A DNA stretch of 64,000 nucleotides from Prostheceraeus crozeri. Taxonomy: Eukaryota > Platyhelminthes > Polycladida > Euryleptidae. The notes beneath the pieces are model-generated. The model was given only the letters and a program-made list of their open reading frames with translations. It ran no database searches and had not been told where the DNA came from. Of this stretch, positions 19,695 through 63,409 are shown one piece after another. Within the stretch, counting starts at the first letter, position 1. Each line of letters starts with the position of its first letter. The position numbers and the translations under genes are program-made. The stretch lies in NCBI GenBank assembly GCA_907163375.1, contig CAJQUW010006804.1, positions 186,001 to 250,000 of the forward strand. The letters are read 5' to 3'.

Positions 19695-21366
19695 TATACG
19701 GTCTTGCAAAAGTTCCTGCACAGTTGAAAAATCATATATCATTGCCATGTGTTGTGTGGATATAGATGGCTATGCAAGCTTGACCACAATGTCTATGACG
19801 ATTGAATTTGCATAGTATTTCAATCATACAATAATGAAGACATTGATTGTAATCTAAAAACAAATTTAGTAACAGAAAATGCTTGATATAATTGCAGAAT
19901 ACAAACTATAGATTAGAAAAGTGGTGTGAAAGAAAAGGAAAAAGTTAATATCAAGTTGCTCCTCCGGAAGCAGCAATCACTTGCTCACAACGTGACCCCA
20001 TCGATCGAATGGGCCTTCTTACACGTGTTTGTGGTATTGCAGACCATTCCTCCATCGCTGCAGGCGCCAAGTCTTTCAGATTTCTGATCGATCGCCTGGA
20101 AATGGCTCCTTCAAGTTGATCCCACAACTGCTCAATAGGATTGATGTCCGGACTTTTGCTTGGCCACTCCATGTGGGTGCAATCTGTCCGCCCTTCATGG
20201 AAAGCATTGACATATGTATTGCGGTGTGGTGTGGCATGATCGTCTTGGAAGATGAAGCCAGGGCCAATACCTTCTCAGCCGAACGGAATTGAGACTGTCT
20301 CCAAAATTTCATCCCGATATTTCTGACCATTTAAAGTATCTTCTATGAGCACCATGGCATATTGTGTTTCCAACTTATGGCGGCCCACACCATTATGCAA
20401 CCTCCTCCACCTCCTGCTCTGTCACACCATTCTACTGCAGTCTGATTAGTCAGTCTCGTTCCTCGAAGCCTCCGTACTCAATTCTTCCATCAGTCCAACG
20501 TAAGGAAAAATGACTCTCATCACTAAAAACAACTTGCCGCCATTGATCCACAGACCATGGAAGATGATGCCGAGTCCACTCTAGTCGGTCGACTTTGTGC
20601 CTTTCGGTCAGCAGCGGAAACTTAAGTGGACGATAGCTGTTGAGTCCACGAGCACGGAGGCGACGACAAATCGTTGACTGTGAGACTGTCACAAGATTAT
20701 TGCGGAGTTCTTTTTGAAGTTCAGGCAAGGTGGCGAATAGATTGCTTTCAACAGTCGCTATGACACGATGTGCATCGTCAGAATTCATTGTTTTGGGCTT
20801 GTCCTGATCTGAGCCTGTCTTCAACGCTACCAGCTTCAGCATAGCGCTTCACCTGGTCTCGGACAGTATACCTTGCAATTCCAAAACGAGATGCAATTGC
20901 CCATACAACCCCTTGCGTCTTCTTTTTTGAGTGATAATTCTCCAACGCACTGATTCAGACATCCGATTCGTTTTTCAAATGAATACAAAAATGGCAACAT
21001 ACATTAAAAAGAATACTGATATCGTCATTTCACGCAAAAATTTGAACTCATGGCAATCGATATCTCTATTACTTCATCTCCATAATGTCATTATGCATTT
21101 CATTAGAAAGATTTCATGGTAAGACAATGTCAAAGACATCGATCGATCGATATCATTGACTTCAATCGCCACTGAAATTGGTTCTGCCTTTTTTTGAAAC
21201 TGTTCTCAGTGAACCATCGCATGACTCTCACAAACAATTTTATAATAGTCCTATTCGTCTTTCCATGAAGTTTAACCGACAGTTGACGTGAAGTTCATAC
21301 GCAGTGTAGAACGACCGCTGGCTGAGATTTTCTCAAGGTGTGCGGGAACTTTTGCAAGACCGTATA
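19695..21366 (-). mobile_element. Tc1-type DNA transposon, about 1.67 kb
   Basis: The left end (19695-19721) and the reverse complement of the right end (21339-21365) agree at 26 of 27 positions, beginning TATACGGTCTTGCAAAAGTT. TA borders the element. The inverted repeats are short and well preserved compared with the decayed transposase inside, which suggests a fairly young inactive copy or a young family. Confidence 0.9.
19951..20963 (-). pseudogene. Tc1 transposase (DD34E type), frameshifted
   Basis: The start at 20963 opens MSESVRWRII, the common Tc1 beginning. The helix-turn-helix region reads in another frame as FGIARYTVRDQVKRYAEAGS (about 20840-20900). From 20450 to 20842 a 130-codon open stretch holds the second DNA-binding part and QVVFSDESHFSLRW (about 20490-20530) with the first catalytic Asp. 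Then G-G-G-G-x-I-M-V-W-A-A-I-S (about 20370-20410), GFIFQDDHATPHRNTYVNAF (about 20205-20265, second Asp) and EWPSKSPDINPIEQLWDQLE (about 20110-20170, the final Glu). It ends at 19951. All three catalytic residues can be read. At 1013 bp it matches the usual 340-residue length. A few frame changes and stops inactivate it. Confidence 0.9.
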
Positions 21367-28671: not shown

Positions 28672-30414
28672 GGGCTTGTCTTATAACACGTCATTAATTA
28701 AATAGAACCTTAATGAAGCCTCATTTAACTGTCATTAAACGGATACCGTCCATAGACGCGTCATTTATTTTGCTTCATTTAACTGTCATCATCTTTTAAT
28801 GGAGGGGTGTTCACGAATTCGTGATAAAAAATGTCATTCATTAATGGAAGCTAAATGAAAGCAGAATATTTAAAGGATGGTAAGACCTTCATTATCGCAT
28901 AAATGTCAGGCACATCGAGCAAGAGTTGCTAATGTAAGACAACAACTCTTATTGAATTATCGCTTTCAAACGCATAACAGAGTCCATGAGATGATTTACT
29001 TTCAGAATCAGATGACCAAAGATCTTATCTTGGTTTGGCTATAACTGCGTGTACAATGTACATGCATGCCGATGCACGGTATGTATGTTATCGACCCATA
29101 GGAATCCCACGGGCCCACAGACCTAAAACAATCATTTTCAAAAGAACAGCTTGGTATGTCAATCTGCATTTTGTTTCATGCATGTTCATATTGATTACTA
29201 AGTCAAAGCTATGAAAATGTTAATTCATCATACAAATAATACGAAGGCTTTACTGCTATTAAACTGAAAAATGTTTCTTTATTCTGCTGAAATGTTAACA
29301 TTTTCCGGGCCCATAGGAAACCCAACGGCCCATGGGCCTACGTTATCGCTCCAGGCCCATCCCAGGTCCACAGTCCTTCCATGGGGCATTTCTGTAAATT
29401 CGTCCCTTGTCCACTGTGCTTGGAATAACCTTGCAATTAATGGAAGAATTAGAAGAGTTTATTTTGTCACGATCACATAATTGGTCAAGATTAGTGCCGA
29501 TTTGCCAACCTCCTGTCAACTCAGTGAGACTCGATCCCTGGACAATTTCGCTTTCACTTGAACCGTGGTACTATTATTAACCGAGCGAGTTCGGATTTAG
29601 CTAATCTTACAGTTTATTGCACAAGACCTTTCCATATTAATTGCTTCGATGTCCATGGATTGCTGGGTTCAGAATGAATAACTTATTTACGTCATTTATG
29701 AATGAAATCCAAGATGTCTGAATGGAAAACGAGGTTAAACAAATTTAATGAACTCTATGTTTTATTGTCAGAATGTGTCAAAATGACATCATGAAATCCC
29801 GCTACACGCGAGGTTCTGAAAGATTAATAGAAGGCCCTTTTCGAGTTGCCAAATCGATGTGACCTTGGCAACTCGAAAAGGTGATTATTTGCAAAAATTT
29901 ACACTTTTTACATGAACTTCGTCAAGGTCTCTTCGAAATTTTTAGTCGGTCAGAGCTCGATTATTTTTTTGGAAAACCGACAATTCTAAGTTTGAAAACA
30001 AATTAGTAAATTGCAATTGCGTGTAATTTGTGATTACGTTTCATCCAAAATATTTTGATAAAACCAAAAGTTTAGATTTCTTTGTTTTACTGTTTGGTCA
30101 TGCACAGGAAAATTTAAAATGTCGAAAAGCCCATGCATACAGTTAATTCTTTTGATGTTGATGTCCAATTTCTTTTTCCTATCTCTAGTGTAGTCTTTCT
30201 GTTAATGTCTTTCCATATTTAGAAAATTGTTGGCCGAAGATTATACGTATTCTCTTAATGAGATTCAGAAGAAAGCATTCTAAAAGACACAGTTAAAAGC
30301 GAGTTTCTTTGATCACCGAAATTGTAGATCTTTTACCTGTGATTGCACGGTTTCATTAAACTGTCTTTAACGTTTACTGACGGTTAAACGAATGACGCGT
30401 TGTAGGACAAGCCC
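28672..30414. mobile_element. Core inverted-repeat element, unit 1
   Basis: The core begins GGGCTTGTCTTATAACACGT and ends with ACGCGTTGTAGGACAAGCCC, inverted over about 25 bp, with weaker TTTAATGA/TCATTAAA-type motifs further in at both sides. The 1743 bp hold no credible coding region; a 69-codon open frame at 29271-29480 is probably chance. Inside is a perfect 15-bp hairpin (29837-29880) and a cluster of GGCCCA/TGGGCC words (29090-29360). The bases just outside are AT on the left and AAT on the right. Comparison with 51559-51600 suggests a 2-3 bp AT-rich target duplication. The superfamily is unknown to me. Confidence 0.75.
29837..29880. repeat. Perfect 15-bp hairpin in core element
   Basis: The arms CTTTTCGAGTTGCCA and TGGCAACTCGAAAAG flank a 14-nt loop. 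The same hairpin occurs in units 2 (33162-33205) and 3 (37574-37617). The right arm word also occurs alone at 46345-46359. Confidence 0.9.
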
Positions 30415-59900: not shown

Positions 59901-61286
59901 AAACTTGTGCGCAATGATCTGAATTCTTCGAATCTGAAAGAATTGTGGCAACTGAATCACTTTGATGGACTTTACAGCAATCCGCAAGCGACGCACGATC
60001 TTCCCCTATCTCTGTAAGGCATTAGGAATTCCTTTTCATCTACTTACTAAGTTCCAGCATGTGTCATCGTTTTAAATCAATCTGCACCTCTAGAAAACCG
60101 AAGGACTTAAACAGTCAAATTCTGTGAGTCCGAATGCGAATTCGCTTGTTTCGCAGCTCTGGTGAACAGCCCTTCCAAAACTAAAAGTTGCACATGCATC
60201 ATTTCAAATGAGCCTAATTAATTTGATTTTCTCTGCTTATTTTACCATCTGATTAAAGTTTCTAAACCGTGAGAGATTTTTCAGTTGAGAAGCTGAAACG
60301 CGGCGTCCGTTATTCTCGCATTTTCAATCAGCTGATGAGAATAAGATTTCTGTATTATCTGTGTGCTTCAATGAACAAGACATGGTCTGGAGCAAGTGGA
60401 GTGAGGCAGGGAGGTGATAAGTCAAGTATGAAGCTCTGACGACAGTCGTTAATGGAAAATTCAACCAGAAATCCGGAATTCTCTTGACGTTGTCAATGAA
60501 AGATGAAGGAAGTGTCACATACGAAATTCCTGCGCTTCAAAATTTCATATTTTGCACCCGTCAATCAAACCTTTGGTTTAAGTCAGAATGAAAAGTTAAG
60601 ATGTGTTATGAAATGACGGAAACTATAATGAAGATTAGGAGGAAATTGGAATCTTACTAATTGGTCAAAAACTGCAGAATTTACGTTACTGATGCCACTC
60701 ATTATCGAAAATTTTCCAATTGATGCATAGAAGTATTGTGAACTTTTAAATTGACTGCACAATGAATACATTTGATTAATCAGAAATAATCAGGTTCGCA
60801 GATTGTAATCCGACCCGAATACAATAATAACCAACTTAGCTACGTGTCGTATTATCCATCCTCCCAGCACAAAGTCAGGGCACGACCTGGCGTGCAGCCC
60901 ATAGGATATATTTCTTGATCAGAAAAAGACTGAAAAATTGAGTTCTCTCAACCATAAGTCTCACTTCCCTTGATATATTTTGAATGCTTTATTATTCAAT
61001 CAAAAATCACGATCACTACTACCTAAAATCAATCTTAATCAGTTAAAGTAAAATTGAAATAGTACTAAATTTCCACTTTCATATCAGCATGTATTTCCTG
61101 ACTGAAGTGATACAGGATTTGTCGCGCCCAGAGCAGATTATTTAATGATGGCTCAGTATAAGTACATGGTTATTGTATCAAGAAAGCATGGTTGTTATTT
61201 TCTTGTTTCTTTTTTATTCGCAATGCTATAAAATCATGCATTTCACTTATTTGATTCATCTTAATGATAATATTATACACCATATT
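56989..61286. other. No gene recognised
   Basis: Long stretch without a supported gene. Around 57590-57700 words such as TTCCGGACAGTC and TACTGGACAGTT hint at a decayed pogo/Tigger-type end. Around 58190-58480 is a CpG-richer patch with a 61-codon open frame (58296-58481). Neither is strong enough to call. Confidence 0.35.
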
Positions 61287-61613
61287 ATGTTAAGACAAGC
61301 AACCTGGCGACTGATAAATTCATCAAGTCTCAACAGATGTAGCCACGACGAGACATGCCTCGGCCTGTTTGTCCTCATCAGTCGTGGGTAGGTTTGAACC
61401 AGCGACATTGGAGCTAGAGGACGCACAAGCATGCCCTCTAACCACAAGGCCACCGGACCATCTGTTGAGAGCGTGAATTAGCCAGGAAGGCACTACTTTA
61501 ACGCGGGCACGTGACAGGCACATGTAAGGCGGATTGCATTCTGCAATCACTTAATACCGCATCCGAGATTGAGGCACTTCACGCAAGCGCTGCTCATCAC
61601 ATGTTAAGACAAG
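61287..61613 (-). mobile_element. tRNA-derived SINE, left (minus) copy
   Basis: Read on the minus strand: a leader of about 130 bp with CTCCGCC-like and CTGGCTAATTCAC blocks, then a tRNA-like region (box A TGGCCTTGTGGTTAGAGGG, box B GGTTCAAACC), then a conserved tail. Both ends carry CTTGTCTTAACAT as a direct repeat (61287-61299 and 61601-61613), giving a repeat period of 314 bp. The tail contains CTGATGAGGACAAACAGGCC followed by GAGGC, a hammerhead-like core with the catalytic GAAA changed to GAGG, so this copy should be inactive as a ribozyme. Confidence 0.8.
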
Positions 61614-61642
61614 TTAACACAAATTTATCAGGTGCCAGGCTG

Positions 61643-61919
61643 CTTGTCTTAACATGTGATGAGCAGCGCCTGCGTGAAGCGCCTCAATCTCGGATGCGGT
61701 ATTAAGTGATTGCAGAATGCACTCCGCCCTCGACGTGCCTGCGTCAAAGCAGTGCCTTCCTGGCTAATTCACTCTCTCAACAGATGGTCCGTGGCCTTGT
61801 GGTTAGAGGGCATGCATGTACGTCTACTAGCTACAACGTCGCTGGTTCAAACCTACTCACGACTGATGAGGCCTAACAGGCCGAAACATGTCTCGTGGTG
61901 GTTACATCTGTTGAGATAT
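61643..61919 (+). mobile_element. tRNA-derived SINE, right (plus) copy
   Basis: Head CTTGTCTTAACATGTGATGA, leader to about 61785, box A TGGCCTTGTGGTTAGAGGG (61792-61810), box B GGTTCAAACC (61844-61853), then the hammerhead-like segment and tail to CATCTGTTGAGA, where similarity to the left copy stops. The boxes are 33 bp apart, within the range of RNA polymerase III internal promoters. Just upstream (61619-61642) lies the end of another monomer (AATTTATCAGGTGCCAGGCT plus G) in the same orientation, so the copy derives from a head-to-tail array. Confidence 0.82.
61857..61898 (+). ncRNA. Hammerhead ribozyme motif (type I, minimal stem III) in SINE
   Basis: All conserved core positions can be read. 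CTGATGA (61863-61869) is followed by stem II GGCC-TAACA-GGCC (61870-61882), GAAA (61883-61886), a minimal stem III C-AT-G closed by A-U, and the cleavage triplet GTC (61890-61892). Stem I pairs 61857-61862 (TCACGA) with 61893-61898 (TCGTGG), five Watson-Crick pairs plus one G-U. Predicted self-cleavage falls after C61892. Stem III has only two pairs, as in some retroelement hammerheads that act best as dimers. Activity is not shown; the motif could also be a decayed or coincidental match. Confidence 0.7.
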
Positions 61920-61925
61920 GATAAA

Positions 61926-63409
61926 GCATACTATGCATCATCATTTTTCTAATGATTTTCAGTTTTAATGATCTTAGGCATCGAAGAATTTAAAAGCGAC
62001 TCGTTAAGGCGAATTATCTGAAATGCATCGCTTCAGAGATGCATTGTCTCGTTGTTTTCTTTGCATGTGCAGCTGTGGCATCAATGATAGGCCAAATATG
62101 ATAGTGAAAAATCATAAAAATGGTGTACTACCTTATGGTCAGTCTAACATTGTCCACACGTTCAAATATTCTGTTTTACTGTTTTTGTGCTATTCTTGCA
62201 AGCATGGAATAACTTCAACAGAAATAAAGAGATCATTGTTCAACAGAAATAAAGAGATTATTAATGTAATCGATGCGCATTCGAAGTCATTTTTTACAAA
62301 ATAGATGACCATGAATGAATAGAGAAATACGAATTGTGTTGGTTCATAGATCCAGAAAATATATCTTATGCATGGGTGATCATATGGTGTAATTTTTGTC
62401 ATGCTGAAATGAAAATACATACATATAGGCCTGCATGTAAGTAATAGTAAAAACTCCTTCTGTGAAAATATGAGGTATGTTCGATTGCTAATCTTCGAAG
62501 TGATGAACTCAATGGCGAACATGCAAGCATGGAAACGAACATTAAAATATTTTGAAAATAATTGGTTTAGCATGAACGAAGAAAAATAATCGTCATACAA
62601 AAGATGTACAAATACAATCCTATCAGTGATAATGAGTAACCCCCTATGACTAACTTATGTTCAAGGCATTTAGCAACTGGGTTGCATGAGCTGCTGTAAA
62701 TTTATCAGAATCAAAATTATCGCAATTTGTCCGTTGATTTCATGTCACGAGGTAACTTTTTTAAACACGCTTAATGAATAATTGAAAAACCCTATCACCG
62801 TTAATTACAACTCTTCGTGCATCGTGCTTTATTCTTTAAGGTGCGAAAAAGAAGTACTCTGTCTAATACTTGACTTCAAGCATACATGTATCACGGCTCA
62901 TTATGACTTATTTTTCAGACACAATGGAGATGGCAGCGACGTTTTAGGAAAACTGCAATGTCTTTCTTTTTTAGGAAGCTTTCTATTTATGGGACAGATT
63001 TGCGACCAGTGTCAGTGTCGTTCAGCTGGTTCCCCTAACCCGATCAGCAACCCCTACCGAAATTTTATCAATCTCCTGAACAACGAAAAAGAAACGAACT
63101 CCAAATTTTAGATATCTTATTTTCTACGTATTCTGCAGCATTCCACCAATCTTGAATAACATCGGCTTCATACTTTCGCTACAATGAGATTTCAAAAATT
63201 TGTATGTGCGACTGACTTGTCGAATTTTGCACTACTTTCGCTCAAGAACTATTTATTACCTGCTGTTGGTGTTTATTGAAAAGCTGAGACCAACAGAAGA
63301 AGGTCCAGACTAGGCATGCGAAAACGCCAAGCTTTCGCGAGACTCCTCGCACTCCTCGCATCTTCCGGGCTTACACGGTGGCTGTATACGTCAAGAGTGG
63401 ACCACGGCC
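61926..63409. other. No gene recognised; weak exon candidate at 62920-63111
   Basis: On the plus strand, an acceptor-like TTATTTTTCAG at about 62910-62920 precedes an open stretch (HNGDGSDVLGKLQCLSFLGS, later FLFMGQICDQCQC) ending at a stop at 63109-63111. No family is recognised. The rest is AT-rich non-coding sequence. Confidence 0.3.

Follow-up and report, generated by a model that had tools for sequence, protein, structure and literature searches.

The window analyzed here, a 64,000-nucleotide stretch of the Prostheceraeus crozeri genome, harbors a hammerhead-bearing element that we interpret, with a probability of roughly 70%, as a non-autonomous hybrid of a metazoan retrozyme and a SINE that carries a Pol III-type promoter and is mobilized by a Penelope-like element (PLE). 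The element is structurally well supported, and the mechanism proposed for it rests on sequence. Its head-to-head and tandem architecture, with two end sites, points to Penelope-type mobilization and not to that of an ordinary LINE-driven SINE.

A sequence-only reading of this DNA had placed the parts of a hammerhead in the right order within 42 nt, adjoining a box B. Both points are borne out by the letters, and box B (61844-61854) ends 2 nt before stem I. The parts are:

61857-61898, forward strand: type I hammerhead motif, minimal, with a loopless palindromic stem III (from sequence, Rfam and fold)
61857-61862, forward strand: hammerhead stem I, 5' strand
61863-61869, forward strand: hammerhead core CTGATGA
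61870-61882, forward strand: hammerhead stem II, GGCC/TAACA/GGCC, four pairs
61883-61892, forward strand: hammerhead GAAACATGTC, ending with GTC before the predicted cut
61893-61898, forward strand: hammerhead stem I, 3' strand

The motif has the CUGANGA, the GAAA, the UH before the cut and the ordered stems I and II of a type I hammerhead. Stem I comprises six pairs, the last of which is T-G in the window copy, stem III consists of the palindrome ACATGT and has no loop, and the cut is predicted after C61892, equivalent to u116 of the repeat unit (positions u1-u303, numbered on the first unit of locus L016). When up to two mismatches were allowed, CTGANGA-N13-GAAA matched 108 times in the 64-kb window, and the motif described here was the only match with none; the core spacer in the element is 13 nt, and a pattern with a spacer of 10 does not suit it. 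In the covariance check suggested by the sequence-only reading, Hammerhead_HH9 was the best Rfam ribozyme model for the motif (27.4 bits, E 1.5e-4 over 801 bases) but scored under its gathering score of 52. No Rfam hit in the 64-kb window reached gathering level, and HH9 scores in 8 other loci of the element (29.8-33.5 bits) were likewise all below 52; these low scores count against our explanation. Rfam matches to mir-1791 and mir-8908, below their own gathering scores, were dismissed as inverted-repeat artefacts. When the 42 nt are folded for minimum energy, stems I and II are retained but extra pairs form across the core, and 2 of 200 shuffles were equally stable (z -2.6); the computed energy of a dimer was -37.0 kcal/mol versus -33.6 kcal/mol for two monomers. 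At the level of its letters, the window hammerhead is confirmed as real.

A second hammerhead family, of canonical type I and unrelated to the first, is present in the genome at seven loci (L153-L159; C2063, C8550, C2433, C6193, C6453, C11748 and C12005). Of 73 candidates scored, these 7 exceeded the Rfam Hammerhead_1 cut-off, the best at 47 bits. Five of these loci are near-identical including their flanks, and in one (L156) the ribozyme is preceded, at a distance of about 130 nt, by a box-B-like GGTTCGATTCCC.

Across the 2.05 Gb of the genome there are 2652 copies (1422+1230) of the exact core CTGATGA-N13-GAAACATGTC and none (0+0) of the reversed-pattern control, which argues that the hammerhead is no chance match. 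A DNA search for copies of the element gave 703 first-look candidates, 40 of which were scored. Conservation was assessed in 40 copies on 39 contigs, taken from the first listed places that carry an exact box A string, a choice that avoids selecting copies by their ribozyme; a separate set of 44 copies, picked by similarity to the window, was left out of these counts. The sequence-only reading had named in advance a lack of conservation in other copies as one finding that would refute its proposal, and these copies do not show such a lack. The 13-nt core was intact in 34 of the 40 copies, the exceptions being L086, L089, L094, L098, L100 and L106. With L086, L089 and L094 omitted because the hammerhead is interrupted there, the core of the remaining 37 rows had 3 changes in 481 letters versus 93 in 3124 outside the hammerhead and box A (Fisher p 6e-4), or 3/444 versus 83/2866 without CpG (p 0.0018); over all 40 rows the figures were 4/503 and 109/3353 (p 5e-4). 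Variation in the core of these box-A-selected copies is thus 4-5 times lower than in flanking sequence. Stem pairs hold in 33-37 of the 37 copies, and compensatory double changes in the stems were found in none of them, which counts against our explanation. The median divergence of copies is 1.8%, by which the family is young, so conservation mostly mirrors recent source copies, and its informative part is the lower rate of change in the core.

Upstream of the hammerhead lie two promoter-like sequences, and a pair of complementary stretches brackets the whole:

61776-61786, forward strand: CTCAACAGATG, complementary to 61905-61915
61792-61809, forward strand: box A-like sequence TGGCCTTGTGGTTAGAGG
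61844-61854, forward strand: box B-like sequence GGTTCAAACCT
61905-61915, forward strand: CATCTGTTGAG, partner of 61776-61786

In the predicted fold of the unit, the stretch matching CTCAACAGATG/CATCTGTTGAG closes a domain that holds box A, box B and the hammerhead. In the window, 52 nt separate the starts of the two boxes. With up to two mismatches, the 21-nt box A string was found 3845 times in the genome (2062+1783) versus 2 (1+1) for its reversed control, and box B was present in the 40 box-A copies and mostly unchanged (6 changes in 437 letters). The element therefore has the internal box A and box B expected of a SINE, and these sequences constitute a candidate internal Pol III promoter. 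The proposal that the element is tRNA-derived stands as far as these box-like sequences go, but no tRNA fold was recognized, either by ARAGORN (0 near the window copy and 0 in 10 other loci) or as an Rfam tRNA match in the window stretch or 8 other loci searched; with only box A and B to go on, tRNA ancestry is likely but not firm. TTTT is absent from the 303-bp unit, also across the unit border, so that Pol III could read through arrays. Together, the conserved core and the box A/B-like sequences lend support to the earlier idea of a SINE or retrozyme hybrid.

The window copy belongs to an insertion made of two arms:

61290-61926 (about 61287/61290 to 61925/61926), both strands: whole insertion, two head-to-head copies, about 640 bp (inverted arms I1-I4; unit u matches both strands)
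61281-61289, forward strand: possible left target duplication CATATTATG (by eye; 8 of 9 letters match the right one)
61287-61618, reverse strand: left arm, reverse copy, outer end the long end (tail), core broken (unit matches)
61287-61320, reverse strand: 34-nt left-end stretch including the tail (inverted pair I4, 91%)
61621-61925, forward strand: right arm, forward copy, outer end the short end (u about 149; unit matches)
61927-61935, forward strand: possible right target duplication CATACTATG (by eye)

The inverted pairs of the arms are 88-93% complementary, and a second copy of the 34-nt tail stretch lies inside the element at 61622-61655 on the forward strand. The intact hammerhead sits in the right arm; in the left arm, GAGG replaces GAAA. 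Together, CATATTATG and CATACTATG on either side of the insertion may represent a target duplication of 9 bp in which one letter has changed. Elsewhere in the window, three near-identical stretches at 28769, 32094 and 36506 start 3325 and 4412 bases apart, and a Tc1/mariner-like transposase fragment (HTH_Tnp_Tc3_2) lies at 20450-20848 on the reverse strand.

Copies of the element form head-to-head pairs and head-to-tail arrays of 303-bp units, as at L016, in keeping with metazoan retrozymes, which combine a type I hammerhead with tandem units of about 170-400 bp; the G+C content, taken from one unit only, is 49.8%, and metazoan non-LTR retrozymes are delimited at <50%. The 303-bp unit contains no long reading frame and no RT or GIY-YIG ORF, and no poly-A run was found in the unit or at the ends tabulated. 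The AUG within CUGAUGA opens a 31-codon frame that extends through the tail. We give it little weight because its odds by chance are an estimated 1 in 5; the ORF of the PLE PAc starts inside its hammerhead (PMC11167929).

The 5' ends of copies are variable and the 3' ends mostly fixed, at two sites. At the short site BLAST matches end at u146-155 (..TTTGATAAA(T)), near u150, the center of a 16-nt palindrome at u142-157; at the long site they end at u176-187 (..TTGTCTAAA), near u178, ends past u181 being extensions by TA repeats. The sites are 28 nt apart, and the predicted cut is 34 nt upstream of the short one and 62 nt upstream of the long one. A script assigned 23 of the 40 box-A copies to the short site and 15 to ends past u174, with 2 interrupted. 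By eye, one scripted short end (L117) was a long end displaced by a gap, and the 15 comprised 11 long ends, one end near u168 (L105) and three copies running on (L082, L085, L110), for totals of 22 short and 12 long ends. cDNA 5' ends show no preference for the cut site, since only L013 (u120) and L161 (u121) had inner ends within 4 nt of u117 by eye, and this counts against our explanation. Several inner cDNA 5' ends lie near u254-274, perhaps at a structural stop.

In each of the 28 independent head-to-head insertions with readable ends, exactly one outer end is short and the other is long. Eleven came from a first set (L009, L010 = L015, L013, L020, L022, L023, L025, L027, L031, L036 and L038) and 17 from a second, in which 18 of 21 arrays were readable at both ends and C309a and C309b, with shared flanks, were counted once. 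Two of the short ends are blemished, that of L020 being blurred by TA repeats and that of C309a a few nt short; the left end of C274a is short. Ends were unread where arrays continue into another unit (C171, C716) or the left copy has decayed (C206). L021 and L035 fit the rule but are compound and were not counted. Three further head-to-head loci (L012, L032, L033) have one arm that ends elsewhere and count against our explanation. Insertions are frequently located in (TA)n, and 7 of the 17 second-set pairs, lying in TA repeats, are uninformative on target duplication. Among the other 10, 7 share 8-12 bp beside their ends, versus 1 of 90 mismatched pairs; the common flank stretch of C309a scored 3, and that of C290 scored 5, probably too low since the anchor fell on the second TTTGAT. 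Thus both PLE-type end features that were tested for, an approximately 30-bp tail at one inverted end and short target duplications, are present, and they match the published PLE 'tail' signature.

The arms themselves bear on the template. In array C186, each of the 12 full units (5 from one arm, 7 from the other) has G205T, a variant found in 1 of 24 loci, with one further change. In C274, C268T, a variant of 4 of 19 loci, is in 17 of the 18 units that cover the position, in both arms, one unit having four more changes. Sixteen head-to-head loci were tried for such variants, and 13 had both arms covered; with rare defined as present in at most 15% of loci, the arms had rare variants in common in 8 of 13 insertions, compared with 8 of 197 between-insertion arm pairs. 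This sharing implies that one RNA probably templated both arms, and the 5 of 13 insertions with no common rare variant count against our explanation. Since copying would start 34 or 62 nt 3' of the cut, the template would end after that distance in a cleaved linear monomer, and copies of hundreds to thousands of bases would need a circular or an uncut template. The uniform arrays favor a circular one, an indirect indication of circular RNA. Against this, the arrays in L027 and L035 are inhomogeneous, with unlike neighboring units that would need a two-unit circle or an uncut multimer. At L035:164-505 and L035:1501-1962, neighboring units differ at core position u92 (G or A), a difference that would follow from a two-unit circle in which one ribozyme is dead.

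These data also frame the alternative in which the same PLE-type element is copied from a linear multimer that was not cut, or from an antisense transcript, with the hammerhead having another role or none; it overlaps with our explanation except for the template. Antisense transcripts have been discussed for PLEs (PMC3846280), ribozyme mutants of PAc still inserted in vitro (PMC11167929), and the unlike adjacent units of L027 and L035 suit such a template. However, the uniformity of C186 in both arms, nearly matched in C274, and the conservation of the core argue against it, and we regard it as unlikely, though a serious competitor.

An ordinary tRNA-type SINE moved by a LINE, with the hammerhead as a passenger and head-to-head copies arising by twin priming, would account for the box A/B-like promoter, the variable 5' and fixed 3' ends and the target duplications. 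It fits poorly with the lack of poly-A in the unit or at the tabulated ends, the presence in all 28 insertions of two 3' end sites, 28 nt apart and each used on a different strand, the long head-to-tail arrays and a hammerhead core that varies less than its surroundings, and we consider it improbable. A DNA fold-back element or MITE with inverted arms, later amplified into satellite-like arrays, would suit the long inverted arms and the insertion in (TA)n but not the single-ended copies, the variable 5' truncation, the unequal outer ends or the direct 303-bp tandem units that obey the same end rule, and is very improbable. A chance or fossil motif devoid of activity, for which the broken core in the left arm and the sub-gathering Rfam score might speak, is scarcely credible given 2652 exact cores versus 0 in the control and 34 of 40 intact copies.

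Under the retrozyme/SINE explanation, Pol III would start at the box A/B-like promoter and read through tandem units. The transcript would then be cut by the minimal hammerhead, which probably works best in dimeric form because its stem III is the palindrome ACAUGU, and a host ligase would close the monomer to a circle. Judging from the structure of the insertions, a PLE RT/GIY-YIG enzyme may prime cDNA at the two internal sites, one per target strand, and copy the same RNA from both starts over several rounds of the circle. The expected product is the one observed in the genome, namely two head-to-head arms, often of several units, that end short on one side and long on the other and have 8-12-bp target duplications, often in (TA)n. 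A more specific version, in which a PLE enzyme dimer primes both cut strands on one circular RNA at the short and long starts 28 nt apart and the palindrome TTGATAAATTTATCAA at the short site may set the register, we hold tentatively, at slightly less than even odds. If it were true, hammerhead, circular RNA, Pol III promoter and PLE would be linked in one element, and the optional PLE tail would be explained.

A partner was sought among the PLEs. A GIY-YIG search gave 11858 first-look candidates; 150 were scored, all over the cut-off, and several PLE candidates stand in 3.1-4.0-kb tandems. By this measure the genome is rich in PLEs. At one locus (L075), GIY-YIG was above the cut-off and RVT_1 just under it. 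No PLE sharing sequence with the element was found, as DNA or translated, in 41 partly overlapping PLE loci (30 GIY-YIG plus 11 longer), which are a small part of the 11858 candidates; this result counts against our explanation. The only DNA match to the unit with E <1, 37 bp at L068, was rejected as an insertion within the PLE frame and not shared ancestry. No Rfam ribozyme was found in 11 PLE loci. A hammerhead-like motif with an intact core, a 5-pair stem I and a palindromic stem III lies 5' of a PLE-like ORF at L163, which is a relative of L074's first ORF (38% identity, 99 aa); a strict count gives this motif no stem II, and similar motifs at L047 and L063 have 2 core changes each. These hammerhead-like PLE motifs are imperfect as read, which counts against our explanation. 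Beside a PLE tandem and near a TA repeat at L064, a complete-looking hammerhead (CTGACGA, 5-pair stem II, GAAACCGGTA, 6-pair stem I) at position 813 of the minus strand perhaps represents a third family.

The retrozyme literature poses two questions about animal retrozymes, one on the means of their transcription and one on the enzyme that mobilizes them (PMC7761336). A candidate Pol III promoter and PLE-type ends make transcription and mobilizer both testable in one element, which offers thousands of young copies for the purpose. The rule of one short and one long end (28/28) and the variants shared between arms (8/13) are direct data on the poorly understood integration of PLEs.

Several known systems share parts of this design. 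Metazoan non-LTR retrozymes are similarly noncoding, with a type I hammerhead and short tandem units in multi-unit arrays, and PLEs have been proposed as their mobilizing partner (PMC7229834). As described in PMC7761336, plant and metazoan retrozymes seem promoterless, and metazoan ones have no motif that reveals an autonomous partner; the plant retrozyme NbRZ1 has since been assigned an LTR promoter (PMC9695139). Compared with metazoan retrozymes, the element adds a box A/B-like promoter and PLE-type ends, and its hammerhead is minimal and not canonical, as in PLEs, whose minimal hammerheads usually have no non-conserved helix III nucleotides (PMC7761336). In the PLE Pen2a_Av, a 31-bp tail is optional on one of two inverted pLTRs and the target duplication is 9 bp (PMC3846280); in PAc, two RT start sites delimit the tail, and cutting and extension take place on both strands of the target (PMC11167929). 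The element resembles these PLEs in the approximately 30-bp tail on one of two inverted ends, the 8-10-bp target duplications, the tandem and inverted copies and the hammerhead upstream of the end sites, but differs in having no RT or GIY-YIG ORF and in its tRNA-like promoter. Helenus TRIMs are likewise non-autonomous retroelements that captured a tRNA-like promoter but are LTR elements, and in the available text of that paper the hammerhead occurs only in a cited title (PMC10886601). One precedent invoked by the sequence-only reading, hammerheads in the Sm-alpha SINE-like repeats of Schistosoma, is on record: S. mansoni has about 38,500 hammerhead candidates, and 2342 of its 2368 tRNA-Gln-TTG-like loci are SINEs similar to Sm-alpha (PMC2770079). 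Sm-alpha and Sj-alpha share the hammerhead within a tRNA-related SINE with the element but belong to a different genome, and their description, with which the comparison was made, does not mention a two-end (tail) signature in its available part (PMC2770079). No retrozyme or SINE with PLE-type ends was found among the matches listed in the open full-text literature. Against this literature, hammerhead SINEs are known from Schistosoma, and the Penelope-type ends are new.
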